Below are positions 22,324 through 60,436 of a stretch of DNA of 64,000 nt, piece by piece. Below the pieces are notes generated by a model that was given only the letters and a program-made list of their open reading frames with translations, ran no database searches and was not told the origin of the DNA. The stretch is from Ardenticatena maritima (GTDB lineage Bacteria; Chloroflexota; Anaerolineae; Ardenticatenales; Ardenticatenaceae), in assembly GCF_001306175.1 (NCBI RefSeq), contig NZ_LGKN01000004.1:496001-560000 (forward strand). Direction: 5' to 3'. The position numbers and the translations under genes are program-made. The first letter of the stretch is position 1. The number at the start of each line of letters is the position of its first letter.

Positions 22324-25182
22324 TTATACCACACTTTGCGCCTCTTCTTCCGGCGGCGGCAGGGATGATGTGTCCAGGGAGAAATCAGCAAAGGCGAGCA
22401 TGTCCCGAAAGTAATCGCGGTCTGAAATTGATTTGAGGAAGGTATGCGCGTCTTTGTCCTGAAGGTATGAGCGCAGGGTTTCCGGCACGTCGGTTTGCTG
22501 TTCATTCCCGTTTTGCACAGCCTCATGGAGCTTACCAAAGGCTTCCGGGTTGGTGAGCGCTTGGCGCGCCAGGTGGGGCCAACGCATCTGAATGACGATG
22601 GCGGCGGCAAGCGCATCGAGCTCCGCATCGGTGGGGACGCGTGAGAGACACCCAACTTCTTTTGCGAGCATGGTTTGCAGGCGAAAAATGTTGACGAACC
22701 GCTTGGCCTGGCGGGGGTTGGGTTCTAGATGCTCCAGGGCGCGATGGATGGCGTGCCGAATATCCGCTGATTCGTGCCAGCGTTCTTCGACGTATTCGAC
22801 CGCCCGGCGACGGATTTCTTCGGGTTCGTTGGGGAAGAGTTCCTGGGCAATCTCTTCCACGGCCTTTTCGGGACGCGCGCGCCTTTCAGCCTGCAGACGT
22901 TCAGCGGCCTGCTGGATGCGCTCAGAGGTCGGCGTGTTGGTCTCAGATGGGTCTTTTGGAGGCGCATCGTCGGTTGGTTGTTGAGCAGGCGCAACGGGTT
23001 GCAATTGTGGGGTGGTGCGTTGTTGCAGTGTTGGGCGAGCCGTTTCCTGAATGGGACCAAGCAACTTCTCTACAAATTTCTCCATGGTCAACTGGTGAAG
23101 TGGGGGCAGACGCACAGGCAACTGGATGATTTTTTCCATAAAGCGGTGGGCGAGTGTGCGACCGCCCACGGTGTACTGCCCATCATCCAGCTCTTTGTAT
23201 TTGACGGCGATACTGCGCAAAACCATCTCTTCATCCATCGCCAGCACGAAGACGCAGTGTTGCGCGTCAATCAGGTGGTTGATGGCTTCGATGATTTCAA
23301 CCGGCTTGGGCGGTGGACAACGGTCGAGGTCGTCAATGAAGACCACCAGCGGCCATCGCCCCCCCTGAGTGATGCTCTCCACGACATACCGGAAATCGTC
23401 CTCAAATGTGCGCAGAAACCCGATGCGGGCTTCGTAGTCGGGGTTGTGCAAATAGGCATTGATGTTGAAGGGGCCCGTATGGCGCAGATACATCCAGATA
23501 CTATTGAGAAGCGGGGCGAGGAAGGCAATGAATGCCGCCACCTCGGGCATCGTTTTGAGAATTGGCAGGACGTCTCCTTGCCACCAGGCTACAAATTTGA
23601 CGGCTCCAAAGACAAGCCCCCCCAGCACAAAAGCTTTGGCGATATCCTGCCCAAAACGCCCCCAGCGCATGCGCTTCATTCGGAGTCGAAGCGCAACGCC
23701 CGCCCACCAGCACCAGCCGCCTTGCGCTTTGACTTGAGCGAGTAGGTCAACCACCAACGCCGCCCACAACGCTTCGGCTTTCTCATACTTCCAGGCGTTG
23801 AACCAGACAAGCGGGAATGTCGTATTAGGGGGACGCCCCGTATAAAAAGCGCGGAGACACCGCCATGGAGCGTTGAGCTTTTGCCATATCCGGCGCAAAC
23901 GCGATGGCGACGCCTCCTCTTCTGGTTGCAATTCTTTCTGCAATTCTTTCTGAATCATGCGCATGAGCGACGTTTTGCCCATGCCCCAGGGGGCCAGAAT
24001 GGCGATGGTGAGCGGTTTTTGCGTTTGCTCACTTTTGATGAAATCGGCGAGTACCCTGGCATAGATGCGATAGCCAAGAGCGTCGTCTGTGGTGGGGTGG
24101 TCGCCAAAGGCGGCGGCTTCAATAGTAAGTTCTTTTTCGATGCGGGTTTCAGAGCGGGAGCCACCTGCATCGGCATGTATCTCATCGAGTGCGCGTCGGA
24201 GAATATCCCGTATCTCTTCATCTGATATTTTGTCCAGCGCCTCTTGCAGGATTTGGATTGCTTGTTCGGTGTCGCCAACCTGCACCATAGCGCGGGCGAT
24301 GTCAGCGAGGGCATGAGCACGGTACCGCTCATCTTCAATGCTGCGAGCGGCGTTGAGTGCCTCCGCTAACAAGTCTCTAGGCAGGTGGGGGGCGAGGGCA
24401 GCGAGGGCATGAGCACGGTCCCACTCATCTTCAATGCTGCGGGCGACATCAAGAGCCTCGGGCAGCAACTCCGCCGGCAGGTGGTCGGCAAGGCCGAGGA
24501 GAGCGATGGTGCGATACCGCTCATCTTCAATGCTGCGGGCGGCATCAAGAGCCTCGGGCAGCAACTCCGCCGGCAGGTAGCGGACAAGACCGAGGAGAGC
24601 GATGGTGCGATACCGCTCATCTTCAATGCTGCGAGCAACGTCGATGATCTCGATTAGTAGATCCTGCGGCAAGTGAGGAGCAAGGGCGCCGAGGGCGCGA
24701 GCGCGGTACCGCTCATCTTCAATACTACGGGCCGTGGCAAGAGCCTCGGCCAAGACATGTGCCCGTTCCTTCTTCGGCAGGTGGGGGGCGAGGAGAGCTA
24801 AGGCATGAGCGCGGTACCGCTCAACTTCAATGCTGCGGGCGGTGGCGAGGGCGTGGTCGGTATCACCAGCCTGGGCAAAGGCTTGGGCGATGACGGCGAG
24901 AACTTCGGCGCGAACCCCCTCATTTTTAATGCCCCGAGCGGCGTGGAGAGCTTCGGCGAGCAACCCCTCGGGCAGGTAGGGGGCGAGGGCCGCCAGGGCA
25001 AGGGCGCGGTGCACGGGATATCGAAAACGCTGACTGATGTCCAATGCTGTGGACAATGCACGATGGGCGTCTTCAAACTGTTCGACGCTACTCAAGACTT
25101 GTAGCAAGCCACCAAGTCGTTCGTACTCATTTTCAATGCGTGCAATACGTTCTAACTCGGCTTGCAGGCTTTGCGCGTCCAT
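22324..25182 (-). CDS. KAP-type P-loop NTPase with N-terminal helical-repeat array
   Basis: 952 residues; role unknown. Residues 58-325 form about eight helical repeats of roughly 32-36 residues with consensus ALxxLAPHLPxxLLxEALxxARSIEDExxRA. A KAP NTPase domain follows: Walker A APWGMGKTS (397-405), WFNAWKYEKAEALWAAL (460-476), two membrane helices inserted at about 516-534 and 546-566 as KAP proteins have, Walker B LVVFIDDLDRC (612-622) and HCVFVLAMDEEM. The C-terminal quarter is charged and ends in an all-helical region. ATG 25182 is chosen because GAGGGCAC precedes it and the promoter lies only about 32 bases upstream. An in-frame extension upstream would run through that promoter. KAP proteins are membrane-associated and linked to conflict systems; the repeats are shared with the NACHT protein at 55.5 kb. 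Confidence 0.85.
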   Translation of the reverse strand: MDAQSLQAELERIARIENEYERLGGLLQVLSSVEQFEDAHRALSTALDISQRFRYPVHRALALAALAPYLPEGLLAEALHAARGIKNEGVRAEVLAVIAQAFAQAGDTDHALATARSIEVERYRAHALALLAPHLPKKERAHVLAEALATARSIEDERYRARALGALAPHLPQDLLIEIIDVARSIEDERYRTIALLGLVRYLPAELLPEALDAARSIEDERYRTIALLGLADHLPAELLPEALDVARSIEDEWDRAHALAALAPHLPRDLLAEALNAARSIEDERYRAHALADIARAMVQVGDTEQAIQILQEALDKISDEEIRDILRRALDEIHADAGGSRSETRIEKELTIEAAAFGDHPTTDDALGYRIYARVLADFIKSEQTQKPLTIAILAPWGMGKTSLMRMIQKELQKELQPEEEASPSRLRRIWQKLNAPWRCLRAFYTGRPPNTTFPLVWFNAWKYEKAEALWAALVVDLLAQVKAQGGWCWWAGVALRLRMKRMRWGRFGQDIAKAFVLGGLVFGAVKFVAWWQGDVLPILKTMPEVAAFIAFLAPLLNSIWMYLRHTGPFNINAYLHNPDYEARIGFLRTFEDDFRYVVESITQGGRWPLVVFIDDLDRCPPPKPVEIIEAINHLIDAQHCVFVLAMDEEMVLRSIAVKYKELDDGQYTVGGRTLAHRFMEKIIQLPVRLPPLHQLTMEKFVEKLLGPIQETARPTLQQRTTPQLQPVAPAQQPTDDAPPKDPSETNTPTSERIQQAAERLQAERRARPEKAVEEIAQELFPNEPEEIRRRAVEYVEERWHESADIRHAIHRALEHLEPNPRQAKRFVNIFRLQTMLAKEVGCLSRVPTDAELDALAAAIVIQMRWPHLARQALTNPEAFGKLHEAVQNGNEQQTDVPETLRSYLQDKDAHTFLKSISDRDYFRDMLAFADFSLDTSSLPPPEEEAQSVV
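24208..25011 (-). repeat. helical repeat array of the KAP NTPase (about 8 units)
   Basis: In-frame tandem units of about 96-108 bp (32-36 residues). Two central units around 24440-24640 are nearly identical at DNA level. Two units carry a QAGD/QVGD version, linking the array to the TPR-like helical repeats found in other bacterial proteins. Unit consensus matches the array at 57890-60217. Confidence 0.85.
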
Positions 25183-38731: not shown

Positions 38732-39673
38732 ATGAACGAAGACCTGCGAAACCACCTGGACCACATCCGCAACCGTGTGGTTCCCAACCGCCGCGCCACC
38801 ACCGAACCGCCGACGCCGGACGTGATTGCCGACCTGGAAGCACGGCGGCAACCGCCGCTCCTTATCCGTGGGCTGGAACAACTCAACGGCGGTTTCTGGT
38901 ACGAGCAACACGAAACGCTGGAATGGCTCTGGCGCGCCACCGATGAACCGGTGCGCGACGTGTTCAAAGGCATTTTGCTGGCGGGGGTGGGGGCGTACCA
39001 CACGCGCCAACGCAACCGCCACGGGGCGCTGGCGAAATGGACATCGGCGCTGGAATACCTGCGCCCCTACGCCGGCACACGCCCCTACGCGATTGACGTG
39101 GACGCCGTTCTGGCGCAGGTGGAAACCTTTGCGGCGCGTTTACAAGCCGAAGAAGAACCCGATTGGGACGCCGTCAAGCAGATGGTGCGCGGGTTGCGCG
39201 TGCCTTTCGAGCGTCGGGCGGCGCACCCCCGCGTCACGGCGATTTTGCAGCGCCTGGATTGGGCGTACAACGAAAGTGTGATGGCGTTCACGCGCAATGT
39301 GCGCGACCTGAGCGAGGAAGAAGCCGACTGGCAAGCGGTGCACGGGGCGCGCACCATTCGCATGTTGTTGCAACACATTGGGACGGCGAAAGTGGTCAAT
39401 CTGGACCGGCTCTTTGGCGAAGGCACACTCTCGTGGGATGCGGTCGAACCGCCGCAGCGCGTCCCCGACTTGCTGCACTGGATTGCCGAGTATCAGGAAC
39501 GCTTGCGCTTCCATTTTGGCTTTGCCGAAGACGCCATGCTGGACGAAGAGCGCCCCTTCGCCCGCTGGACGCTCTCGGTGGAACGAATTGGGAACATTCT
39601 GGCGGAGCACGACCTGTATCACACGGGCGAAATCAACGCCATTCGCGAGCAGTGGCGCTATTCCACCAAATAA
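38732..39673 (+). CDS. DUF309-DinB fusion protein
   Basis: 313 residues with two recognisable parts. Residues about 44-115 follow the DUF309 pattern: LEQLNGGFWYEQHETLEWLWRATDEPVRDVFKGILLAGVGAYHTRQRNRHGALAKWTSALEYL. Residues about 150-310 are a DinB-type four-helix bundle with candidate metal histidines (LLQHIGTAKVV, AEHDLYHTGEIN). DinB-like domains are often thiol-dependent metal proteins of unknown reaction; DUF309 has no known role. ATG 38732 (AGGAG upstream) is preferred over the adjacent GTG at 38729. It converges on niaR and overlaps it by 16 bases. Confidence 0.82.
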   Translation: MNEDLRNHLDHIRNRVVPNRRATTEPPTPDVIADLEARRQPPLLIRGLEQLNGGFWYEQHETLEWLWRATDEPVRDVFKGILLAGVGAYHTRQRNRHGALAKWTSALEYLRPYAGTRPYAIDVDAVLAQVETFAARLQAEEEPDWDAVKQMVRGLRVPFERRAAHPRVTAILQRLDWAYNESVMAFTRNVRDLSEEEADWQAVHGARTIRMLLQHIGTAKVVNLDRLFGEGTLSWDAVEPPQRVPDLLHWIAEYQERLRFHFGFAEDAMLDEERPFARWTLSVERIGNILAEHDLYHTGEINAIREQWRYSTK

Positions 39674-40203
39674 CCTTTCTCGCGAAGCACCTCACGAGCG
39701 CGCACCAGGGCTTCGTTGGTGCGCGCTTCGAGTGTGTGCAAGTGCAAGCCGTCGGTCAGTTCGCTGAGCAAATGCGCTTTGGTTTCGCGCAGTTGTTGCA
39801 TGAATTGCGCCACATCGGCGCGTGAAGCAATGTGCAAATTGCCGCGCAGTTCGCCGTAGATGGGATGCTCAACAATGACATCTACCACTTCCACCCCCAC
39901 GTCCACCAGCGCCAGCAATTCGTCTTCGGTCTGTTCGGGCGTGTGGCGCACCGCCACCACACTGCGCCACACGGTGCGCCCCGGCGGATGCATGTAGTAG
40001 CCGCGCGGGCTGGCGTGAATCTCCTCGCCGGCGGCACGCAACACTGCAATATCCTGCACAATCACCTGCCGACTGACGCCAAAATGGTCGGCGAGCGTGG
40101 TGCCTGTGAGGGGCGCGTTGGCTTGTTTCAAAAGGCGCACAATTTCACGGCGGCGCTCTTCGGTTGAATACGTTGTTTCCTGAGGGGCTGTTTGTTGGGT
40201 CAT
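39658..40203 (-). CDS. niaR: NAD biosynthesis transcriptional repressor NiaR
   Basis: Repressor of NAD-synthesis genes that uses nicotinic acid as co-repressor in studied species. An N-terminal HTH_11 winged helix spans about 14-65. A C-terminal 3H domain carries H87, E95, H154 and H156. In the Thermotoga maritima protein the metal-site residues are H79, E87, H146 and H148 (from memory), so all four match with a constant shift of eight. 181 residues. ATG 40203 overlaps the nadB stop as ATGA, placing the repressor as last gene of the operon it should control. It overlaps the convergent DUF309-DinB gene by 16 bases. Confidence 0.93.
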   Translation of the reverse strand: MTQQTAPQETTYSTEERRREIVRLLKQANAPLTGTTLADHFGVSRQVIVQDIAVLRAAGEEIHASPRGYYMHPPGRTVWRSVVAVRHTPEQTEDELLALVDVGVEVVDVIVEHPIYGELRGNLHIASRADVAQFMQQLRETKAHLLSELTDGLHLHTLEARTNEALVRAREVLREKGYLVE

Positions 40204-41747
40204 GCGACCTCCAATTCCTCGTCTTCGAGCCGAACATGGCAACCCAGGCTCTGCTCATTGCGCCAGGCGGCGGTTGCCACCAGCCACGCCGCAGTAGCGG
40301 CATGCCACAACCGAATGGTTTCCGGCGCTGGGTCGTGGGTATGATACATGGAAGCCGCTTCTTTCCGCAAACGCGCCAACGTTTCAACCGCCTGCTGTAA
40401 GCCGGTACGTGTGCGCACAAGCCCCACGTTCCGCCACAAAAGCGTGCGAATCTGCTCAAGCAGGGCGTTGGCGGCGTCAGCGTCGGCGGTCGCGCCGCCG
40501 GGTGTTTCGGGTGGGCGGATGCGGGCGGGCGGGCGCGGGTGTTCTTCCACCAGATGCTGGGCGACACGCGCCCCCCACACCACCCCTTCGAGCAATGAGG
40601 TGCTGGCAAGCCGGTTCGCGCCGTGCAAGCCCGTGCAGGCGACTTCGCCCACTGCGTAGAGGCGCGGCACGCTGGTGCGCCCCCACTCGTCGGCAACGAC
40701 ACCCCCACAGGTGTAATGTGCAGCGGGTGCAACAGGAATCGGCTCGCGTGTGATGTCCACGCCGTACTCCGCGCAGGCGGCGGCAATCGTGGGGAAGCGG
40801 GCGCGAATGCGTTCGGGCGGCATGACCGAGGCAATATCCAGCCAGACGTGGGGCAAGCCGCGCGTCTGCATTTCGGTGTAGATGGCGCGCGCCACCACGT
40901 CGCGCGGGGCAAGGTCGCGCCATTCGGGGGCGTAGCGCGCCATAAAGGCTTCGCCCGCTTCGTTCAGCAGGCGCGCGCCGGCGCCGCGCACCGCCTCGGA
41001 GATGAGGAAGGCGGGCGCATGGGGCGCGGCAAAGGCGGTGGGGTGGAATTGGACGAATTCCAAATCGGCGAGTTCGGCGCCGAGTGCGTGCGCCATGGCG
41101 ATGCCGTCGCCAAGCGTGCCCGGCGGGTTGGTGGTACGCGCGTAGAGCGCCGCCAAGCCCCCCGTGGCGAGGACGGTTGCCCCGGCAACGACCAAGCGCC
41201 AGCGGGTCTCGCGTTCAACCCAAAAGAGCGCCCCCGCGCAGGCGTCCGCCCCGGCGGTGCGCACCAGGGCGGCGGCAATGTGCCCCGTCAGCAAGGTAAT
41301 GCGGGGATGGGCGCGCACGGCGTTGAGCAGGGCGATGTGAATGGCGCGCCCGGTGGCGTCGGTGGCGTGGATGATGCGCGGGCGCGAATGCCCCCCTTCC
41401 AGCGTGCGCGCCAACGCCCCGTCGGGCGTGCGGTCGAATGTGACGCCCAGGCGTTCCAGCAAAAGCCGTTCCACCGCGGCTGGACCTTCCGCCGCCAGCA
41501 GGTGGACGGCGGTCGGGCGGTTGTGGTGGCTTCCCGCCCGCATGATGTCTTCGGCAAGCAAACGGGGCGAGTCATCCTCGCCCCGATAGACAATGCCGCC
41601 CTGTGCGTAGAAGGTGTTGCATTCGTGGGGGTCGCGGGCTTTGGTGGCGAGCACAACGGGCACGCCGGCGTCGGCAAGGCACAACGCCGTGATCCCCCCC
41701 GCAACGCCGCTGCCAATCACCAGAACGGGCGTGTGAAGCGTTTCCAT
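40200..41747 (-). CDS. nadB: L-aspartate oxidase
   Basis: First step of de novo NAD synthesis: L-aspartate to iminoaspartate with FAD. 515 residues. The FAD dinucleotide loop is VIGSGVAGGITAL. Then NTFYAQGGIVY, TGGLAALYARTTNPPGTLGDGIAMAHALGA, the active-site LEFVQFHPTAF and AVRGAGARLLNEAG, and the late TCGGVVADEWGRTSVPRLYAVGEVACTGLHGANRLASTSLLE, all family hallmarks. The C-terminal helical domain is complete. It follows nadA after 12 bases and overlaps niaR by 4. Confidence 0.96.
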   Translation of the reverse strand: METLHTPVLVIGSGVAGGITALCLADAGVPVVLATKARDPHECNTFYAQGGIVYRGEDDSPRLLAEDIMRAGSHHNRPTAVHLLAAEGPAAVERLLLERLGVTFDRTPDGALARTLEGGHSRPRIIHATDATGRAIHIALLNAVRAHPRITLLTGHIAAALVRTAGADACAGALFWVERETRWRLVVAGATVLATGGLAALYARTTNPPGTLGDGIAMAHALGAELADLEFVQFHPTAFAAPHAPAFLISEAVRGAGARLLNEAGEAFMARYAPEWRDLAPRDVVARAIYTEMQTRGLPHVWLDIASVMPPERIRARFPTIAAACAEYGVDITREPIPVAPAAHYTCGGVVADEWGRTSVPRLYAVGEVACTGLHGANRLASTSLLEGVVWGARVAQHLVEEHPRPPARIRPPETPGGATADADAANALLEQIRTLLWRNVGLVRTRTGLQQAVETLARLRKEAASMYHTHDPAPETIRLWHAATAAWLVATAAWRNEQSLGCHVRLEDEELEVA

Positions 41748-41759
41748 GGCGCACCTCGC

Positions 41760-42815
41760 TCAACCAATTTCAAGCATACGCTGGACGGCGCGCAACGCCC
41801 GCACGCGAATCTCTTCCGGCACATGGACTTCATATTGAATGTGTTGCAGCGCGGCGAGTGTATCTTCCAGACGAATTTGGTTCATGTGGCGGCACCGGAT
41901 GGAGCAGAGCCGCACCATCTCCTTGTCGGGGTGAGCGGCGGCGATGTTGTCGCCCATCGCGCATTCGGTGAGCAGGAGATAGCGCGGGGCGTTTGTTTCT
42001 TCGACGAAACGAATCATGGCGCTGGTGCTGCCCGAAAAGTCGGCGGCGGCAACCACTTCGGGGCTGCATTCGGGGTGAGCGAGCACCACCACGTCGGGGA
42101 AGGTGGCGCGCACGTTTTCAATGTCTTCAACGGTAAATTGCTCGTGAACTTCACAGCGCCCATGCCAGGCGATGATGTGGTAATCGAGCATTGTGTCTTG
42201 CCCGTCGCGCGGGATTTGGGTGGGGAAGATGATATGCTTGCCGGTTTCACGCGCCACGTTTCGCGCCAAATACTCATCGGGCAAGAAGATGACCGTGTCG
42301 CTGTTGAGCGATTCGACGACTTTGGCGGCGTTGCTGGATGTGCAGCAGATGTCCACTTCGGCTTTCACGTCGGCGTAGGTGTTGATGTACGCCACAATGG
42401 GCACGCCGGGAAACTGCTCACGCAAACGGCGCACGTCTTCGGCGGTGATACTTTCAGCGAGCGAGCACCCCGCCTTGCGCGAGGGAATGAGCACGGTTTT
42501 TTCAGGGTTGAGAATTTTCGCCGTCTCCGCCATAAACTCGACGCCGCAGAAGACGATGATGTCGTGGTCGGTTTCGGCGGCGCGGCGGCTCAGTTCCAGC
42601 GAGTCGCCCACAAAATCGGGAATGGTGTGGAACAACGCCGGTTCCATGTAGTTGTGCCCCAAAATGACGGCATTGCGCTCTTTTTTGAGCGGCAAAATCT
42701 GCGCGGCGAGTTCGGCTTTGTACCACAACTCGGCGTCGGGGGTGAACGCGCCAAGTTTGGCTTTCAGGTCGGCGTAGATGCGTTCGACTGTCGGTGTTTC
42801 GATGGTTGTTGTCAT
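41760..42815 (-). CDS. nadA: quinolinate synthase
   Basis: 4Fe-4S enzyme condensing iminoaspartate and DHAP to quinolinate. 351 residues. The three cluster cysteines lie in ICCTSSNA, AHPECSPEV and CSIRCRHMN, as in the family. HNYMEP near the N-terminus and the segment DSLELSRRAAETDHDIIVFCGVEFMAETAKILNP confirm it. The start overlaps the nadC stop as ATGA, so translation is probably coupled. In the pathway it stands between NadB and NadC, all encoded here. Confidence 0.96.
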   Translation of the reverse strand: MTTTIETPTVERIYADLKAKLGAFTPDAELWYKAELAAQILPLKKERNAVILGHNYMEPALFHTIPDFVGDSLELSRRAAETDHDIIVFCGVEFMAETAKILNPEKTVLIPSRKAGCSLAESITAEDVRRLREQFPGVPIVAYINTYADVKAEVDICCTSSNAAKVVESLNSDTVIFLPDEYLARNVARETGKHIIFPTQIPRDGQDTMLDYHIIAWHGRCEVHEQFTVEDIENVRATFPDVVVLAHPECSPEVVAAADFSGSTSAMIRFVEETNAPRYLLLTECAMGDNIAAAHPDKEMVRLCSIRCRHMNQIRLEDTLAALQHIQYEVHVPEEIRVRALRAVQRMLEIG

Positions 42816-43687
42816 GACACACGCTCCTCTTGGTGGATGTTGGTTGGCATATGCACCAGCATGCTGAGATCGAAAGCGGGGGCGGAATGCGTCAAAGCGC
42901 CCACCGAGATGTACGCCACACCCGTTTCGGCGATACGCGCTACTGTTTCGAGCGAGACATTGCCCGAGGCTTCCAGCGGAATGCGTCCCGCCACCAGTTC
43001 AACGGCGGCGCGAATCTCATCGAGCGACATGTTATCGAGCAAGATGCGGTCCACATTGAGCGCCAGGGCTTCGCGCACGTCGTCGAGCGTGCGGGCTTCG
43101 ACTTCAATGGGGCGACCGCGGGGGTCGCCGGCGCGCACCCGCTGGACGGCGGCGGTGATGCTTCCTGCGGCGGCGATGTGGTTTTCCTTGATGAGCACCA
43201 TGTCATAGAGCCCCATGCGGTGGTTTTGCCCGCCACCCAGGCGCACCGCCCATTTGTCAATTCTGCGCAAGCCCGGCGCGGTTTTGCGCGTATCGAGAAT
43301 GACGGCGCGCGTATGCGCCACGGCTTCGACAAAGCGGCGCGTGAGCGTCGCAATGCCGGACATGCGCTGCATGAAGTTGAGCGCAGTGCGCTCGCCCAGC
43401 AGAAGCGCATGCCCAGGGCCTTCAAGCGTGGCAATGTCTGTGCCGCGCGCAACGGATGCACCATCAGGGACGAGGGGGGTATAGCGCACGCGCTCATCCA
43501 GCAGGGCGAACGTGCGCGCCGCCACCGCCTGCCCCGCCACAACGCCATCGGCTTTGGCGCGAATCGTCGCCGAGAGCCACATATCGGAGGGGATAGTGCA
43601 TTGCGTTGTGATGTCGCCGTCGCCGATGTCTTCATCCAGCGCGCGGCGGATGATGTCGTCAAGCCAGTCTGTACGCGAGTTGTCCAT
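42812..43687 (-). CDS. nadC: nicotinate-nucleotide pyrophosphorylase (quinolinate phosphoribosyltransferase)
   Basis: Converts quinolinate and PRPP to nicotinate mononucleotide. 291 residues. Hallmarks are EDIGDGDITT, ERTALNFMQRMSGIAT, DTRKTAPGLRRIDKWAVRLGGGQNHRMGLYDMVLIKENHI, IEVEARTLDDVREAL, ILLDNMSLDEIRAAV and SGNVSLETVARIAETGVAYISVGALTHS. AGAGGTG precedes ATG 43687. First gene of the NAD operon, under a consensus promoter with a tandem 12-bp operator at the -35. Confidence 0.97.
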   Translation of the reverse strand: MDNSRTDWLDDIIRRALDEDIGDGDITTQCTIPSDMWLSATIRAKADGVVAGQAVAARTFALLDERVRYTPLVPDGASVARGTDIATLEGPGHALLLGERTALNFMQRMSGIATLTRRFVEAVAHTRAVILDTRKTAPGLRRIDKWAVRLGGGQNHRMGLYDMVLIKENHIAAAGSITAAVQRVRAGDPRGRPIEVEARTLDDVREALALNVDRILLDNMSLDEIRAAVELVAGRIPLEASGNVSLETVARIAETGVAYISVGALTHSAPAFDLSMLVHMPTNIHQEERVS

Positions 43688-43723
43688 TCTGCACCTCTGG
43701 CGCTATTATGGTTGGTGGTGTCG

Positions 43724-43752
43724 AGAATACACTATGCTGACTGTCTTGTCAA
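43724..43752 (-). promoter_or_regulatory. promoter of the nadC-nadA-nadB-niaR operon
   Basis: -35 TTGACA (43752-43747), 17-bp spacer, -10 TATTCT (43729-43724), 37 bases before nadC. The -35 straddles the junction of two 12-bp operator repeats. Confidence 0.88.
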
Positions 43753-43763
43753 CTGTCTTGTCA
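43740..43763 (-). promoter_or_regulatory. putative NiaR operator: two abutting 12-bp direct repeats
   Basis: On the minus strand, TGACAAGACAGT occurs twice in perfect tandem (43763-43752 and 43751-43740). The repeats overlap the -35 box of the nad promoter, so bound NiaR would block polymerase. Assignment to NiaR rests on position and on the niaR gene in the operon, not on a published motif match. Confidence 0.75.
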
Positions 43764-43806
43764 TTTCAAAGGAGAGGAAAGCGCGGCGATACGTCAAAAG
43801 CAGCAA

Positions 43807-43837
43807 GCAAAAAGCGGCTACCGGTGATGGTAGCCGC
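43807..43837 (-). terminator. terminator of the secreted-protein gene
   Basis: 9-bp stem GCGGCTACC/GGTAGCCGC (43814-43837) followed on the minus strand by TTTTTGC. Confidence 0.85.
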
Positions 43838-43874
43838 ATTGTTTTCCAGATACCCCATGCACAGCCTTCAAACC

Positions 43875-44414
43875 TCACACACGGCGGCGCGTGCGCACCA
43901 GCAAAACACCGCCCGCCAACGCCAAAAGCCCACTCACAGCCAGCGTGAGCATGCGGCTATGGGTGGGAGACCGCTCGGCGCGCAACGTTTGCAGCGTGAC
44001 GGCGGTGGGGCCAGTTGAGAACGTCCAATTGAATCCAGTAAACAGCGATTCACCGCCTGAGCAGTTATTATCCCAAGGGGCGATAAAGAATTGATATTCA
44101 ACTGTTGTATTCGTAAATGCAGCCGGCACGCTTGTTGTAAACACATCGCAACGCCAGTTGCTTGGGGGATTCGTTGTATCATATTCACAGCGTTGGCGGT
44201 AATAGTTCCCAGCATCACCCGTCGGGTGCACTTCAACACATACAGACTCGCCAAAAGTGGTATTAGACTCAACCCAAAACCGCCAGCCTGGGCTGAGCCA
44301 CTGCGGTGCAGTGCCCGTGTGGTTCGTAATGTAAGTGGCAGCCTCAAGCGTTGCTGGGAGCAAAAGCGCAGCAATGATCAAACAGAGACTACAAACACGC
44401 AGGTAAAAACGCAT
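43875..44414 (-). CDS. small secreted protein with C-terminal membrane anchor
   Basis: 179 residues, no recognised family. Signal peptide VCSLCLIIAALLLPATLEA at the N-terminus. The mature part has four cysteines (VCVEV, RCEYD, RCDVF, NNCSGG) that can form disulfides and aromatic/Asn-rich beta sequence (YITNHTGTAPQWLSPGWRFWVE, VEYQFFIAPWDNN). A C-terminal helix LAVSGLLALAGGVLLV followed by RTRRRV is a stop-transfer tail similar to sorting-anchored surface proteins, but no LPxTG is present. GAGGAGG precedes ATG 44414; in-frame sequence upstream is promoter DNA. It may bind sugars or metal at the surface, but this is a guess. Confidence 0.78.
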   Translation of the reverse strand: MRFYLRVCSLCLIIAALLLPATLEAATYITNHTGTAPQWLSPGWRFWVESNTTFGESVCVEVHPTGDAGNYYRQRCEYDTTNPPSNWRCDVFTTSVPAAFTNTTVEYQFFIAPWDNNCSGGESLFTGFNWTFSTGPTAVTLQTLRAERSPTHSRMLTLAVSGLLALAGGVLLVRTRRRV

Positions 44415-44440
44415 CTTCCACCTCCTCTTCACAACCCCAC

Positions 44441-44455
44441 CGTTCGGGAACGTTC
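44441..44455. promoter_or_regulatory. overlapping palindromes at the secreted-protein gene promoter
   Basis: CGTTCGGGAACGTTC (44441-44455) contains CGTTC-GG-GAACG and the perfect GAACGTTC. It lies 3 bases downstream of the -10 box, covering the likely transcription start, where an operator would act. Confidence 0.4.
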
Positions 44456-44457
44456 TC

Positions 44458-44486
44458 ATTATACCAACTTTTCCCCTCAACATCAA
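44458..44486 (-). promoter_or_regulatory. promoter of the secreted-protein gene
   Basis: -35 TTGATG (44486-44481), 17-bp spacer, -10 TATAAT (44463-44458), about 45 bases before ATG 44414. Confidence 0.72.
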
Positions 44487-44610
44487 TCCCTCCGCCCCCT
44501 CTTTGCAACAATTTTGCAACCATCGCCACTTGCGTTGCAACAATGTCGCAATCGTTCTCAGCGTGGGCGTACCCAACCGACAAAATACGCCCGAAAAGCG
44601 TGCGTCTGCT

Positions 44611-44638
44611 TTGCATCTTCTTCACAACTGACTATAAT
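44611..44638 (+). promoter_or_regulatory. promoter of the nusA-infB operon
   Basis: -35 TTGCAT (44611-44616), 16-bp spacer, -10 TATAAT (44633-44638). The leader to nusA would be about 100 bases and contains a terminator-like hairpin. In the 330-base gap 44415-44744 I see two promoters, one dyad and this hairpin, and no gene. Confidence 0.75.
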
Positions 44639-44671
44639 CCGAGGCAAGAAACAAGCACTCGCGCACCGGAG

Positions 44672-44701
44672 AAGTGGGGATTCCCCACTTTTCTTGTTGT
44701 A
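44672..44701 (+). promoter_or_regulatory. terminator-like hairpin in the nusA leader (possible attenuator)
   Basis: A perfect 9-bp stem AAGTGGGGA/TCCCCACTT (44672-44690, one-base spacer in the dyad) is followed by TTTCTTGTTGT. It lies about 27 bases inside the transcript and 43 bases before nusA. It looks like an intrinsic terminator and could attenuate the operon. Confidence 0.65.
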
Positions 44702-53514: not shown

Positions 53515-55332
53515 ATGTTACCTTTTCGTTTGATAACCGTCGGTTTCCCCCGCTGGCCTCTCTTGTTGCTGACCATGTTCACATTGCTGCTGCTTGGCGC
53601 TCAACGCCCCCCGCAAGAACAGCCACACATTGCCGCCGCCCCGAAAGCCAGCCTGAGCGCAAGCGCCATGCCGGGTGTGCGGTTCGTGCACACTTCGACA
53701 GACGCTAACCGGTTCAGCAACTCGACGCTCATTGACCATCCTCTATTGAACAACAACCCCAATGCCATCTTCTTTGTAACCCAGAACTGGAACCCGGGCG
53801 GCTCGACCGGCTTGCACCACAATCACCCCATCGGCGTTTGGTACACCGGCACCCAATGGGCAATCTTCAACGAGGATTTGGCGTCAATGCCAGCGGGCGC
53901 CGACTTCAACGTCTTCATCCCTGATAGCAGTCTCGGCGCATTTGTCCACTCCGCCACGGCGAGCAACATTGGCTGTGGACTCAGCCAGTGTACCTACATT
54001 GACCATCCATCGCTCAACAACAACCCCAACGCTGTCTTCTTCGTGACGCAGAACTGGAACCCGGGCGACACCACCGGCATCTACAACTCTCACTACATCG
54101 GCGTCTGGTATGACGACGCGGTAGAGAAATGGGCCATCTTCAACCAGGATAAGGATCCTATGCCAGATGGCGCCGACTTTAATGTGCTGATCGCAGATAC
54201 GGCCACCGCGTTTGTCCATGCAGCCACGACAAGCAACATTGGCTGTGGTTCAAATCAGTGCACTTACATTGACCATCCCGCGTTCAACAACAATCCCAAC
54301 GCCATCTTCTACGTGACGCAAAACTGGAACCCGGGCGACACCACCGGCACCTACAACGACCACGCCATCGGCGTCTGGTATGACGCGGCGCTGAAGAAGT
54401 GGGCCATCTTCAACCAGGACCTGGCGGCCATGCCGGAAGGCGCCGACTTCAACATCCTTCTGCCGGAGACCAAAACAAGTGTCTTTACGCATGTTGCCAC
54501 AGCCAGCACCATCTCGTGTTTTTCGGACCACTGTACTTTTATTGACCACCCGCTGTTGAACGACAATCCCAATGCCCTCTTTTTCGTCACCCCTACCTGG
54601 ACTGCCAATGGTGCGGATACCTTCGCCTACAACGACCATCCCATTGGGGTCTATTATTCGACCAGCCTCAAACAATGGGCTATCTTCAACCAGGACACAG
54701 AATCCTTATCTGAAAGCGCCGCCTTCAATGTGCTCATCCCACCGCCGGGCGCCAACGTCTTTGTGCATACGACCACAAGCGCGAACATTACGAACAACAG
54801 CACGTACATTGACCACCCGCTTCTCAACAACAATCCGAATGCGGTGGTTCTTGTTACGCCGAACTGGAATCCCGGCGGAATTGGCGGGCAGTACCACGAC
54901 CATCATGTCGGTATCTGGTATGACGACGGACCAAAGCAGTGGGCGATTTTCAACGAAGATCAGCTCACCATGGCAGAAGGCATCAGCTTCAACGTGCTGG
55001 TGCTGAACGACTTGACCAGCCTGCCTGGCGCAAATGACGCGTTCACCCACACGTCGGCAGCCGATACCGTCGCGAACAACTGGACCAACCTGGACCATCC
55101 ATTGACGAATAAGAACCCGGTGGCCTTTGTCTTCACCACCCTGAACTGGAACCCCGGCGGCGCTGCGACGGGCAAGGACCACAACCACGCCGTTGGTGTC
55201 TGGTACAATTCTGACATTACGAAGCAGAATTGGACGATTTTCAACCAGGACCAAAGCGGTATGCCCACCGGCGTGGGCTTCAACGTGCTGGTGATCACCC
55301 TGCAATCCTACCTACCCCTGGTGATCCGCTAG
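53515..55332 (+). CDS. secreted protein with six large internal repeats
   Basis: 605 residues; no function known to me. Signal peptide (PLLLLTMFTLLLLG) then six tandem repeats of about 85-95 residues from residue 57. Each reads roughly F-x-H-x(3)-A-x-x-I ... IDHPLLNNNPNAIFFVTQNW ... YNDHxIGVWYD ... WAIFNQDxxxMPxGAxFNVLI. Repeats 2-4 carry a cysteine pair near the start (e.g. IGCGSNQC). The repeats look like all-beta modules rich in Asn, Asp and Trp, perhaps carbohydrate- or metal-binding. The end YLPLVIR matches a C-terminal signature common in secreted Chloroflexota proteins. ATG 53515 has AAGGAG upstream. The 250-base gap 53265-53514 shows no gene. Confidence 0.85.
   Translation: MLPFRLITVGFPRWPLLLLTMFTLLLLGAQRPPQEQPHIAAAPKASLSASAMPGVRFVHTSTDANRFSNSTLIDHPLLNNNPNAIFFVTQNWNPGGSTGLHHNHPIGVWYTGTQWAIFNEDLASMPAGADFNVFIPDSSLGAFVHSATASNIGCGLSQCTYIDHPSLNNNPNAVFFVTQNWNPGDTTGIYNSHYIGVWYDDAVEKWAIFNQDKDPMPDGADFNVLIADTATAFVHAATTSNIGCGSNQCTYIDHPAFNNNPNAIFYVTQNWNPGDTTGTYNDHAIGVWYDAALKKWAIFNQDLAAMPEGADFNILLPETKTSVFTHVATASTISCFSDHCTFIDHPLLNDNPNALFFVTPTWTANGADTFAYNDHPIGVYYSTSLKQWAIFNQDTESLSESAAFNVLIPPPGANVFVHTTTSANITNNSTYIDHPLLNNNPNAVVLVTPNWNPGGIGGQYHDHHVGIWYDDGPKQWAIFNEDQLTMAEGISFNVLVLNDLTSLPGANDAFTHTSAADTVANNWTNLDHPLTNKNPVAFVFTTLNWNPGGAATGKDHNHAVGVWYNSDITKQNWTIFNQDQSGMPTGVGFNVLVITLQSYLPLVIR
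53683..55299 (+). repeat. six in-frame protein repeats of about 255-285 bp
   Basis: Each unit codes for the DHP-x-x-NNNPNA / NWNPG / GVWY / WAIFNQD module. DNA identity between units is only moderate, unlike the array at 57.9-60.2 kb, so these are old duplications. Confidence 0.9.
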
Positions 55333-55531: not shown

Positions 55532-58500
55532 ATGGACCCCGTGAGCGCTTCCCTGCTGAAAAAACTGGCCGATACCCTCACCAACCGGGTATTCGACGCT
55601 CTGGCCAACTCCGCGACAGACAAAATACGCGACTGGCTGGGCCGCGAGCCGGCCCGCCTGGCCTTCCAGACCGCCCTGCTGCGTGCCGTGGACCGCTTCG
55701 CGGCGGCCCATCCTGCGTGGGCCGCCTCCCTGCTGGACGAACCCTTCTTCACCAGCGAGGCGGTGACCCGTGAACTGGCCCGCTTCCTCACCCGCCATGA
55801 CACGCCCGATGTGAACGCCCTGGCCGCGGCCTGGGCCGCCCAACTGCCTCGGGTGGGCGCACGCCACCGGGATGAGGCCGCCCGCGCCCTGGCCGACTTC
55901 CTGCACTTCTTCGAGGAGGAACTGGGCAACCAGGAGGCCCTGCGCCCTCTCTTCGACAGCCGGGCGCTGGAGCGCATCGCAGACAACACCGAGGCGCTGC
56001 TGGCGGCCCTGCGCGAACAGCACGCCGCCGCCCTGCGCGCCGCCGACCGCAGCGTGCGCATCGCCGGGGATGTGCGCCACGCCCTCATCGTCACCGGCGA
56101 CTACAACACGGTGCAGGTCTTCCTGGGCGCGACGCCGGTTGACCACCGCTCCCGGGTGCAGCGTTTTCTGGAAGAGTACCTGGGCACACCGAGCCGCCCC
56201 GTGCCCTTCGGCGGCCGCGTGGCCGACCTGCAGCGCCTGAGCGCCTGGCTGGAAGGCGAAGCACGCCCCTACTTCTTCCTCCACGCGCCGGCCGGCCGCG
56301 GCAAGAGCGCCCTGCTCACCCGCTGGGCCACCGCCGTGGCCCGTGAGGAGGCCTGGGCCGTGGTCTTCGTGCCCGTCAGCCTGCGCTTTGATACCCACCG
56401 CCCGAGCGTCTTCCTGGCCCTGCTGGCCCACGGGCTGGCCAAAGCCTATGAGGGCGCCGAGGCCAAATTGACCGAAAAGGACCCCGACGTGCTCCTGAGC
56501 ATGGCCGCCGACTACCTGCGGCGACCAACGCCCCCATCGAACCGCCGCGGGGTGCTGGTGGTGCTGGACGGCCTGGACGAGGCCGCCTGGCCCTCCTACG
56601 GCGAAGCCTGGCGCACCCTCTTCCCCGGCGAGATCCCCGCCCACCTGCGCATGGCGGCCGCCGCCCGCGTGCTGGCTACGGCCAATGCGCCCACCTGGTT
56701 GCAGCGCCTGGGCTGGCGCCGGGGCCGGACCACCACCCGCGAACTGGCGCACCTTTCCCTCGAGGGCGTGCGCGAGGTGCTGGCCCAGATGCAGGTGCCC
56801 TTGGACGCCCTCAGCCGGGATGTGGACCTGGTGCAGACCCTCTACCGCCTGACGGACCAGGGCGACCCCCTGCTGGTGGGGCTGTACGCCCAGAGCCTGC
56901 TGGACACCCTGGAGGCCGAGGGGGAAGCAGCCGCGCAGACCAAAGCGCGGCAGATTGCCCAACTGGTGGGCAGCGGCTACACCACCTTCTTCGAGGGCTA
57001 CTGGTGGCCCGAGCAGCGCAAACTGTGGGAGGCGCGGGGGTTGCCCGGCGACACCGAGACCCAGGTGCGGGAGATCCTGAACCTGCTGGCCCTGGCCCGC
57101 GGCCCCATCCCCGAGGCCGACCTGCTGGCCCTGGCCCGCCGCGCGCCCGGCATGACTGCCCTGGACACCTATGTCCTGGACCAGGTGTGGGAGAACCTGG
57201 CCCGCATCGTCATTCGCCGCCGGGAGGGCGCGCAGACCCTGTTCACCTTCTCTCACCCGCGTATGCGCGAACACTTCGCCGAAGAGCGCTTGCGGGGCCG
57301 CGACCGAGCCCGCTATCGTGCCCTGGAAGCCCGCTACCGGGCATGGATGCGGGAGGAGGTGGCGCGCATCGTCGAGGGGGAAGCGGCCGCCCCTGACGCC
57401 TCGCCCTATGTGCTGCGCTACGCCCTGGACCACCTGGCCGAAGCCCCCCTGGAAACCTGGCGCCGCCTGGTGGACCGCCCCGCCTGGCACCGCACCCGCC
57501 ACGCCCAGGAGGGGGACTACGCCGGCTTTCTGGAGGATGTGCACGCCATCTGGAAACGGGCCACCACCGAAAACCACCGTTTGCTTGCAGCGCCGACCGC
57601 CGAAGGCCAAACGCCCCCCTGCCACCTGCCGCACATCGGCCTGGAAATCCGCTGCGCCCTGATTGAAGCCTCCATTCACAGTCTGGCCGGCAGCCTGCCG
57701 TTCGAACTACCCGCCCGGCTGGTGGAAAACGACCTGTGGACCCCCGCCCAGGCCCTGGCACACATCCGCCAGATGCCAAGTGATTGGAAACAGGCCGCAG
57801 CACTGCGTGCGCTGGCGCAAAAAGCCCCTGCATGGCTGGCCGAGGCCTTCCACGTCGCCCGCAGCATTGAGCGTGAAAAATACCGCGTCCGTGCCCTGGC
57901 CGCCCTCGCCCCCCACCTGCCCCAGGACCTGCTGGCCCAGGCCCTGACCGCCGTCCGCAGCATTCGGGATGCCTACAACCGCGCCCGTGCCCTGGCCGCC
58001 CTCGCCCCCCACCTGCCCGAAGAAGAACGGGCACAAGTCCTGGCCCAGGCCCTGGCCGCCGCCCGCAACATTCGGGATGCCTACAACCGCGCCCGTGCCC
58101 TGGCCGCCCTCGCCCCCCACCTGCCCGAAGAAGAACGGGCACAAGTCCTGGCCCAGGCCCTGGCCGCCGCCCGCAGCATTGAGCGTGAAAAATACCGCGC
58201 CCGTGCCCTGGCCGCCCTCGCCCCCCACCTGCCCCAGGACCTGCTGGCCCAGGCCCTGGCCGCCGCCCGCAGCATTGAGCATGAGTGGCCCCGCGCCAAA
58301 GCCCTGGCGGCCCTCGCCCCCCACCTGCCCCAGGACCTGCTCGCCGAGGCTCTCCACGCCGCCCGCAGTATCCAGTATGAAGACGCCCGCGCCCGCGCCC
58401 TGGCCGCTCTCGCCCCACACCTGCCCGTGGAGGAGCGGAAGCAGGCGCTCGCCGAGGCTCTCCACGCCGCCCGCAGTATCCAGTATGAAGACGCCCGCGC

Positions 58501-60436
58501 CCGCGCCCTGGCCGCTCTCGCCCCACACCTGCCCGTGGAGGAGCGGAAGCAGGCGCTCGCCGAGGCTCTCCACGCCGCCCGCAGCATTCGGGATGCCAAC
58601 AACCGCGCTCGTGCCCTGGTCGCCCTGGCCCCCCACCTGCCCCAGGACCTGCTGGCCCAGGCCCTGGAAGCCGCCCGCAGCATTGAGCGTGAGTGGCCCC
58701 GCGCCGAGGCCCTGGTCACCCTGGCCCCACACCTGCCCCAGGACCTGCTGGCCCAGGCCCTGGAAGCCGCCCGCAGCTTTGAGCGTGAAAAATACCGCGC
58801 CGAGGCCCTGGTCACCCTGGCCCCACACCTGCCCCAGGACCTGCTGGCCCAGGCCCTGGAAGCCGCCCGCAGCTTTGAGCGTGAAAAATACCGCGCCCGT
58901 GCCCTGGTTGCCCTCGCCCCCCACCTGCCCCAGGACCTGCTGGCCCAGGCCCTGGAAGCCGCCCGCAGCATTGAGTGTGAGTGGCCCCGCGCCCGCGCCC
59001 TGGCCGCTCTCGCCCCCCACCTGCCCCAGGAGGAGCAGAAGCAGGCGCTGGCCGAGGCTCTCCACGCCGCCCGGCAATTGCCGGAACAAGGGCTTTTCGG
59101 CAACCCTCGCGCCGAGGCCCTGGTCGCCCTGGCCCCACACCTGCCCCAGGACCTGCTGGCCCAGGCCCTGGAAGCCGCCCGCAGCTTTGAGCGTGAAAAA
59201 TACCGCGCCGAGGCCCTGGTCGCCCTGGCCCCACACCTGCCCCAGGACCTGCTGGCCCAGGCCCTGGAAGCCGCCCGCAGCTTTGAGCGTGAAAAATACC
59301 GCGCCGAAGCCCTGGTCGCCCTGGCCCCACACCTGCCCCAGGACCTGCTGGCCCAGGCCCTGGAAGCCGCCCGCAGCATTGAGCGTGAAAAATACCGCGC
59401 CCGTGCCCTGGTTGCCCTCGCCCCCCACCTATTCCAGGACCTGCTGGCCCAGGCCCTGGAAGCCGCCCGCAGCATTGAGCGTGAGTGGCCCCGCGCCCGC
59501 GCCCTGGCCGCTCTCGCCCCCCACCTGCCCCAGGAGGAGCAGAAGCAGGCGCTGGCCGAGGCTCTCCACGCCGCCCGCAGTATCCAGTATGAAGACGCCC
59601 GCGCCCGCGCCCTGGCTGCTCTCGCCCCCCACCTGCCCGTGGAGGAGCGGAAGCAGGCGCTGGCCGAGGCTCTCCACGCCGCCCGCAGTATCCAGTATGA
59701 AGACGCCCGCGCCCGCGCCCTGGCCGCTCTCGCCCCCCACCTGCCCGAGGAGGAGCAGAAGCAGGCGCTGGCCGAGGCTCTCCACGCCGCCCGCAGTATC
59801 CAGTATGAAGACGCCCGCGCCCGCGCCCTGGCCGCTCTCGCCCCCCACCTGCCCCAGGAGGAGCAGAAGCAGGCGCTGGCCGAGGCTCTCCACGCCGCCC
59901 GCAGTATCCAGTATGAAGACGCCCGCGCCCGCGCCCTGGCCGCCCTGGCCCCACACCTGCCCCAGGACCTGCTCGCCGAGGCTCTCCACGCCGCCCAAAG
60001 CATCCGCAATGAGTACGTCCGTGCCGAGGCCCTGGCCGCCCTCACTCCACACCTGCCCCAGGACCTGCTCGCCGAGGCTCTCCACGCCGCCCAAAGCATC
60101 CAGGATGAAGACAACCGCGCCCGTGCCTTGGCCGCCCTCGCCCCACACCTGCCCCAGGACCTGCTGGCCCAGGCCCTGGCCGCCGCCCGCAGCATCCGGG
60201 AGGAAGACGACCGCGCCCTTGTCCTTGCGGCTCTCACCCCCCACCTAGCGCAACTCTCCTGCACCACGCTCTACCCCCTCTGGGCCGAGACGCTGCCCGT
60301 CCTGGCCCGGCGCACGCGTAGCGACCTCCTCTCCGACCTGCAGGCGCTGCAAGAGGTGGTTTTCGCGCTGGGGGGCGAGGCGACGGTGGCCGAGACGGCC
60401 CGCGCCATCGTGGATGTGGGGCGCTGGTGGCCGTGA
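55532..60436 (+). CDS. giant NACHT/STAND-type NTPase with 23-unit helical-repeat array
   Basis: 1634 residues. Residues 1-175 are a helical N-terminal domain of unknown kind. Near 175-196 the motif VRIAGDVRHALIVTGDYNTVQ resembles the linker between effector and NTPase in many STAND proteins. The NTPase has Walker A HAPAGRGKSALLTRW (251-265) and Walker B LVVLDGLDE (342-350) with the DGLDE form of NACHT domains, then sensor-like ARVLATANAP and a winged-helix-like region (about 490-640). Residues 787-1562 are 23 helical repeats of 32, 36 or 40 residues, closed by a capping segment of about 70 residues. GAGGAG is 7 bases before ATG 55532. The same repeat occurs in the KAP NTPase at 22-25 kb. Codon use is richer in GCC/CTG than in neighbours. 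STAND proteins often sense phage or stress ligands with C-terminal repeats; the role here is inference. Confidence 0.85.
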   Translation: MDPVSASLLKKLADTLTNRVFDALANSATDKIRDWLGREPARLAFQTALLRAVDRFAAAHPAWAASLLDEPFFTSEAVTRELARFLTRHDTPDVNALAAAWAAQLPRVGARHRDEAARALADFLHFFEEELGNQEALRPLFDSRALERIADNTEALLAALREQHAAALRAADRSVRIAGDVRHALIVTGDYNTVQVFLGATPVDHRSRVQRFLEEYLGTPSRPVPFGGRVADLQRLSAWLEGEARPYFFLHAPAGRGKSALLTRWATAVAREEAWAVVFVPVSLRFDTHRPSVFLALLAHGLAKAYEGAEAKLTEKDPDVLLSMAADYLRRPTPPSNRRGVLVVLDGLDEAAWPSYGEAWRTLFPGEIPAHLRMAAAARVLATANAPTWLQRLGWRRGRTTTRELAHLSLEGVREVLAQMQVPLDALSRDVDLVQTLYRLTDQGDPLLVGLYAQSLLDTLEAEGEAAAQTKARQIAQLVGSGYTTFFEGYWWPEQRKLWEARGLPGDTETQVREILNLLALARGPIPEADLLALARRAPGMTALDTYVLDQVWENLARIVIRRREGAQTLFTFSHPRMREHFAEERLRGRDRARYRALEARYRAWMREEVARIVEGEAAAPDASPYVLRYALDHLAEAPLETWRRLVDRPAWHRTRHAQEGDYAGFLEDVHAIWKRATTENHRLLAAPTAEGQTPPCHLPHIGLEIRCALIEASIHSLAGSLPFELPARLVENDLWTPAQALAHIRQMPSDWKQAAALRALAQKAPAWLAEAFHVARSIEREKYRVRALAALAPHLPQDLLAQALTAVRSIRDAYNRARALAALAPHLPEEERAQVLAQALAAARNIRDAYNRARALAALAPHLPEEERAQVLAQALAAARSIEREKYRARALAALAPHLPQDLLAQALAAARSIEHEWPRAKALAALAPHLPQDLLAEALHAARSIQYEDARARALAALAPHLPVEERKQALAEALHAARSIQYEDARARALAALAPHLPVEERKQALAEALHAARSIRDANNRARALVALAPHLPQDLLAQALEAARSIEREWPRAEALVTLAPHLPQDLLAQALEAARSFEREKYRAEALVTLAPHLPQDLLAQALEAARSFEREKYRARALVALAPHLPQDLLAQALEAARSIECEWPRARALAALAPHLPQEEQKQALAEALHAARQLPEQGLFGNPRAEALVALAPHLPQDLLAQALEAARSFEREKYRAEALVALAPHLPQDLLAQALEAARSFEREKYRAEALVALAPHLPQDLLAQALEAARSIEREKYRARALVALAPHLFQDLLAQALEAARSIEREWPRARALAALAPHLPQEEQKQALAEALHAARSIQYEDARARALAALAPHLPVEERKQALAEALHAARSIQYEDARARALAALAPHLPEEEQKQALAEALHAARSIQYEDARARALAALAPHLPQEEQKQALAEALHAARSIQYEDARARALAALAPHLPQDLLAEALHAAQSIRNEYVRAEALAALTPHLPQDLLAEALHAAQSIQDEDNRARALAALAPHLPQDLLAQALAAARSIREEDDRALVLAALTPHLAQLSCTTLYPLWAETLPVLARRTRSDLLSDLQALQEVVFALGGEATVAETARAIVDVGRWWP
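57890..60217 (+). repeat. 23-unit in-frame coding repeat array (96/108/120 bp units)
   Basis: Units by length: 14 of 32 residues (PQDLLAQ type), 8 of 36 residues (PEEERAQVLAQ or PxEExKQALAE type) and one of 40 residues (number 12, with QLPEQGLFGNPRA). Together they are 776 residues, exactly 2328 bp. Consensus RALAALAPHLPQDLLAQALxAARSIEREKYRA. Several neighbours are identical, e.g. the four consecutive IQYEDARA units 17-20, so recent duplication or gene conversion is likely. Length classes step by four residues, about one helical turn. Confidence 0.95.

Follow-up and report, generated by a model that had tools for sequence, protein, structure and literature searches.

The window, by which we mean the whole 64,000-nucleotide stretch of Ardenticatena maritima DNA that was analysed, carries on its minus strand a set of NAD genes in the order nadC-nadA-nadB-niaR. 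The leading gene nadC (42812..43687) encodes a quinolinate phosphoribosyltransferase of 291 aa (PF02749/PF01729; TIGR00078 at 321.6 bits vs a cut-off of 198.4) and is overlapped by 4 bp by nadA (41760..42815), which specifies a quinolinate synthase of 351 aa (PF02445; TIGR00550 and NF006878 above cut-off). These are followed by nadB (40200..41747), an L-aspartate oxidase of 515 aa (PF00890; TIGR00551 at 479.1 bits vs a cut-off of 452.75), and all three enzyme identities passed the NCBIfam equivalog cut-offs. The last gene, niaR (39658..40203), overlaps nadB by 4 bp and encodes a niacin-responsive repressor of 181 aa with HTH_11 (PF08279) and 3H (PF02829) domains. The 4-bp overlaps of niaR with nadB and of nadA with nadC make it likely that the genes are carried on one transcript.

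The minus strand preceding nadC reads GAAA TGACAAGACAGT TGACAAGACAGT CAGCATAGTG TATTCT, in which two perfect copies of the 12-mer abut at 43763-43752 and 43751-43740 and together constitute the putative two-box operator (43740..43763). In agreement with the first-pass annotation, the copies cover the -35 hexamer TTGACA (43747..43752), which is created at their junction from the last T of copy 1 and TGACA of copy 2; a spacer of 17 bp separates it from the -10 hexamer TATTCT (43724..43729). Each 12-mer holds one pseudo-palindromic 10-bp box, TGACAAGACA, with a type I-like core: box 1 at 43754..43763, also found at NiaR loci of other genomes, and box 2 at 43742..43751, placed 12 bp downstream by reading of the sequence and by the alignment of boxes and -35 elements of related genomes. 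On the same strand a Shine-Dalgarno-like AGAGGTG (43692..43698), likewise read from the sequence, stands before the nadC ATG, while upstream, between the operator and the next gene, lies a bidirectional terminator-like hairpin (43814..43837; a pattern match, strand unassigned). The ORF of 233 aa directly upstream of the operator (43875-44576, minus strand) has a hydrophobic anchor-like C-terminus and gave no Pfam or NCBIfam match. Pattern searches of the own genome (3.56 Mb) found the tandem 12-mer to be unique and the single 12-mer to have exactly one further copy, on another contig; this copy (C11:11990, upstream of a zinc-type alcohol dehydrogenase gene) was rejected as a site, being single and at chance level, because ~0.4 chance matches are expected in 7.1 Mb (both strands).

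Members of the NiaR family bind DNA with nicotinate as co-repressor. The window protein carries PF08279 as its N-terminal HTH (59 bits) and PF02829 as its C-terminal 3H domain (120.9 bits), matches the solved NiaR structures 7cv0, 9ebr and 1j5y over the full length, and is 45-46% identical to the NiaR proteins of B. halodurans and T. maritima. In the tree it falls within a group of 12, all from Chloroflexota, with support of 100/97, and its gene context agrees with what is expected of NiaR, with niaR ending the NAD operon and with nad, pncA-like or transporter genes as its neighbours in relatives. The metal- and niacin-contacting residues of T. maritima NiaR, H79, E87, H146 and H148 (PMC7713382), correspond to H87, E95, H154 and H156 of the window protein at a constant offset of 8, just as the first-pass annotation had it together with the terminal position of niaR, and these four are invariant in 20 aligned sequences comprising the 18 Chloroflexota NiaR proteins and two references. 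The NiaR of B. halodurans was reported to bind a type I oligonucleotide with a Kd of ~0.5 uM in niacin and to require its metal site (PMC7713382).

Ligand specificity is not certain from sequence, and several NiaR-bearing relatives are without nadA and have niaR paired with pncA-like or NCS1-type permease genes, as would suit a NiaR that binds here with another ligand (nicotinamide, quinolinate or NAD) or acts ligand-free in Chloroflexota; the invariance of all four contact residues and the presence of a pncB gene nevertheless argue against such a reading, which we consider unlikely. Nicotinate as the ligand is the preferred reading, and its salvage is possible in A. maritima, since the genome has pncB (nicotinate phosphoribosyltransferase) and a pncA-family gene. 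The first-pass annotation had suggested a scan for the 12-mer at these genes, but no operator was found at the own pncA and pncB loci, where the best box scores of 14-15 are at chance level; the regulon in A. maritima therefore seems limited to nadC-nadA-nadB-niaR.

Full-length NiaR was detected in 18 of 400 Chloroflexota genomes, the own genome included, and in the NiaR-bearing loci a 10-bp box, TGWCWWGWCA, is repeated with a pitch of 12 bp. Two- or three-box sites, called at a score of at least 17 of 20 on the two-box model, were located before niaR, nadA, nadC, a pncA-like gene or a transporter gene in 16 of the 18 NiaR-bearing genomes, a count that, like the nadA-locus control given below, is partly circular because the consensus was learned from the same Chloroflexota loci and shaped on them before some of the counts; the remaining two genomes (G013 and G113) have one box only, and the surroundings of the L102 niaR gene yielded no site. 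The boxes precede niaR in G235, G219, G320, G285, G158, G089 and G169 (in the last of which nadC comes next), nadC in G150, nadA in G089, G137, G081 and G201, an MFS permease gene in G029, and a pncA-like gene followed by niaR in G269, G200 and the named Chloroflexota locus L103, a layout that G395 also displays as judged from its translated sequence. Pfam searches on the scanned loci confirmed isochorismatase-fold, MFS, NCS1-type permease and NadA products. In the genome G089, nadA on contig 43 is preceded by the exact 23-mer of the window and niaR on contig 111 by a near copy of it; as these sites are on separate contigs, a shared neighbourhood does not explain the presence of the motif at NAD genes.

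The position of the promoter relative to the boxes is conserved as well. In 14 of 18 aligned sites, the window included, the -35 element starts at the identical offset (last spacer base plus box 2) and is followed by the -10 element at a distance of 16-18 bp, whereas the pncA-type operons at L039 and L103 have their boxes, as judged by eye, immediately downstream of a -10-like sequence; both placements predict a steric block of RNA polymerase. The first-pass annotation had attached importance to direct rather than inverted repeats, yet this geometry is not conserved, for the boxes are inverted in the relatives L048, L045 and L041 and threefold in L039 and L051; the features that persist are the pitch of 12 bp and the overlap with -35.

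Some observations from these genomes stand beside the main survey. An NCS1-type permease gene lies directly after niaR under the operator at L042:10143-11666, L046:4747-6234 and L104:6528-8021, and its product is a candidate transporter for niacin or nicotinamide, distinct from the usual NiaP/NiaX/NiaY set. The genomes of L042 and L046 (G235 and G219) yielded no nadA. The sequence GACAAGACAGTTGTCAAGACT at L091:4778 (G395) is a good two-box match remote from any recognised NAD gene, gene order places no NAD gene adjoining the match at G395:C3:444777, and a match at G158:C1:1478003 was rejected, being inside a coding gene.

It could be argued that the repeat is the operator of another regulator, such as NrtR or an unknown factor, and that niaR is a mere neighbour, given that most Chloroflexota control their NAD genes without NiaR (382 of the 400 sampled). 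We regard this as very improbable, as the motif tracks the presence of NiaR: with no more than one mismatch allowed, the strict two-box pattern was matched in 8 of 400 genomes, 7/18 NiaR-bearing vs 1/382 NiaR-less, and the lone exception, a tandem match in G104, was rejected since it falls within coding sequence, at the 3' end of a zinc-ribbon protein gene. The motif is also present at Firmicutes NiaR loci and matches a tested NiaR operator. In the partly circular control, scores of 13-16 of 20 on the two-box model were obtained for 28 nadA loci from Chloroflexota lacking NiaR, while 6 of 8 nadA loci of NiaR-bearing genomes scored 17-20 (Fisher p 1.4e-5); shuffled NiaR loci reached a maximum score of 15. 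Free of that circularity are the unlinked sites of G089, the non-Chloroflexota loci and the pneumococcal match described next. Wide occurrence of the repeat at unrelated promoters, named at the first reading as the outcome that would speak against NiaR, was looked for and was seen neither in the own genome nor in the 400 Chloroflexota genomes.

Among 76 non-Chloroflexota NiaR loci, 34 of the 43 second boxes within 26 bp of a perfect box are offset from it by exactly +12 or -12 bp, in a test anchored on perfect TGWCWWGACA in which some palindromic sites were counted on both strands; TGTATTTACAGTTGACAAGACA (Clostridiales, L122) and TGTCTTTACAGCTGACAAGACA (Fermentithermobacillaceae, L126) are two-box examples. 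The mutation-tested pnuC operator of S. pneumoniae contains TGTAAAGACAGTTGAC (PMC5343564), which is identical to the niaR site of G089 in 16/16 bases and to the window in 14/16. Separately, the NiaR locus L109 of a Methylomirabilota genome has a two-box site, TGTCTTGTCATTTGTCAAGACA, at 2123-2144 before nadC-nadA-like genes, and the NiaR regulon may thus reach further phyla.

Described NiaR operators are of type I, TGT-N4-ACA, or type II, ACA-N5-TGT (PMC7713382). The window operator resembles type I of Firmicutes and Fusobacteria in its 10-bp core box, its overlap with TTGACA, its placement over a NAD gene promoter with NAD genes downstream, and its pitch of 12, which is the 12-bp register of the type I box and its flanking half-boxes, as in the published 22-bp TACA-AT-TGTCTTGACA-AT-TGTA of S. 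pneumoniae nadC R1; several Firmicutes loci have exact two-box forms. It differs in that the type I core is a dyad-perfect TGT-N4-ACA whereas both boxes of the window depart from it by one base (TGA-N4-ACA) and stand in perfect direct repeat, and in that the symmetry centre of the array is mid-box in type I but between boxes in the window. The strict TGT-N4-ACA is found in box 1 of the NiaR-bearing Chloroflexota loci L042, L052 and L051, and TGACAAGACA is also used in Firmicutes arrays. With type II of Thermotogales the repressor family is common, with 45% identity between Chloroflexota and T. maritima NiaR, but the ACA-N5-TGT spacing differs from the TGW-N4-WCA and ACA-N2-TGW of Chloroflexota sites and is not present inside the window repeat, which has ACA-N2-TGA. 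The S. pneumoniae NiaR regulon (niaX, pnuC, nadC) similarly targets NAD precursor genes; however, it consists mainly of uptake and salvage genes, while in A. maritima the entire de novo operon, together with niaR itself, probably makes up one transcription unit.

Two further explanations carry next to no weight. A chance duplication that built a -35 box, with no regulator involved, could appeal to the occurrence of short tandem duplications and to a second perfect abutting 12-mer pair in the window at 23927 (0.03 pairs expected per window under a first-order Markov model, 2 observed), but it is contradicted by conservation, the same boxes standing at the same -35 offset in other genera, families and phyla. 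Riboswitch control of NAD genes is possible, but that the leader is an RNA regulator (an NAD or other riboswitch, or an attenuator) is scarcely credible, for no Rfam match was found in 43000-44700 and the repeat lies upstream of the transcription start, with a short leader of ~30 nt. The second 12-bp repeat (23927-23952; TGCAATTCTTTC x2.2) is near a Walker-type ATPase-like coding stretch and is unrelated to the NiaR boxes.

The occurrence of the boxes and their 12-bp pitch at Firmicutes NiaR loci, along with the 14/16 pnuC match, points to a type I-like operator. From the sequence comparisons we propose with considerable confidence that the repeat would act as a two-box type I-like NiaR (YrxA) operator seated on the -35 of the nadC-nadA-nadB-niaR promoter for nicotinate-responsive repression, and the operon under NiaR probably constitutes an autoregulatory loop. 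Conservation across genomes lends support to the first-pass prediction of NiaR as the cognate repressor, of autoregulation and of -35 occlusion. When nicotinate is plentiful, NiaR holding metal and nicotinate in its 3H domain would bind the two 10-bp boxes and block RNA polymerase at -35, by which de novo NAD synthesis and niaR itself would be switched off; when nicotinate is scarce, NiaR would leave the operator. By analogy with relatives we infer the binding by the window NiaR, the co-repressor role of nicotinate, repression rather than activation, and the number of dimers.

A more general reading is put forward tentatively, and we lean slightly against it: NiaR operators in all these phyla may share one grammar of TGWC/GWCA quarter-sites every 6 bp that combine into 10-bp boxes at 12-bp pitch, one to three in number, direct or inverted. 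If true, the Chloroflexota tandem would be one phase, and the 22-bp palindrome of classic type I another phase, of a single four-element array, read by a dimer with recognition helices ~12 bp apart.

NiaR regulons have been described for Firmicutes, Fusobacteria and Thermotogales. No paper on NiaR in Chloroflexota was found among the open-licence papers searched, and RegPrecise has a Chloroflexi collection of five genomes. The same switch at NAD genes of many related bacteria makes it very probable that this control circuit is of a kind already known, here found in Chloroflexota, and the NiaR regulon is extended to a patchy set of Chloroflexota, probably also to Acidobacteriota and Methylomirabilota. 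In relatives without nadA the comparison points to genes of niacin salvage, encoding a pncA-like hydrolase and permeases of MFS and NCS1 type, as sharing the operator. The 12-bp box pitch offers a simple structural prediction of how the repressor is seated on DNA, and a concrete operator is supplied for gel-shift work.

Elsewhere in the window, ~24 copies of a 96-bp unit at 57835-60246 encode 32-aa leucine/alanine-rich repeats (...LAPHLPQDLLAQAL...), and more repeats of 96-bp period occur at 24294-24723; these resemble the repeat arms found in large sensor proteins. A 270-bp repeat at 53730-54458, present in 2.7 copies, encodes ...FFVTQNWNPGDTTGIYNNHPIGVWYDE-like modules.
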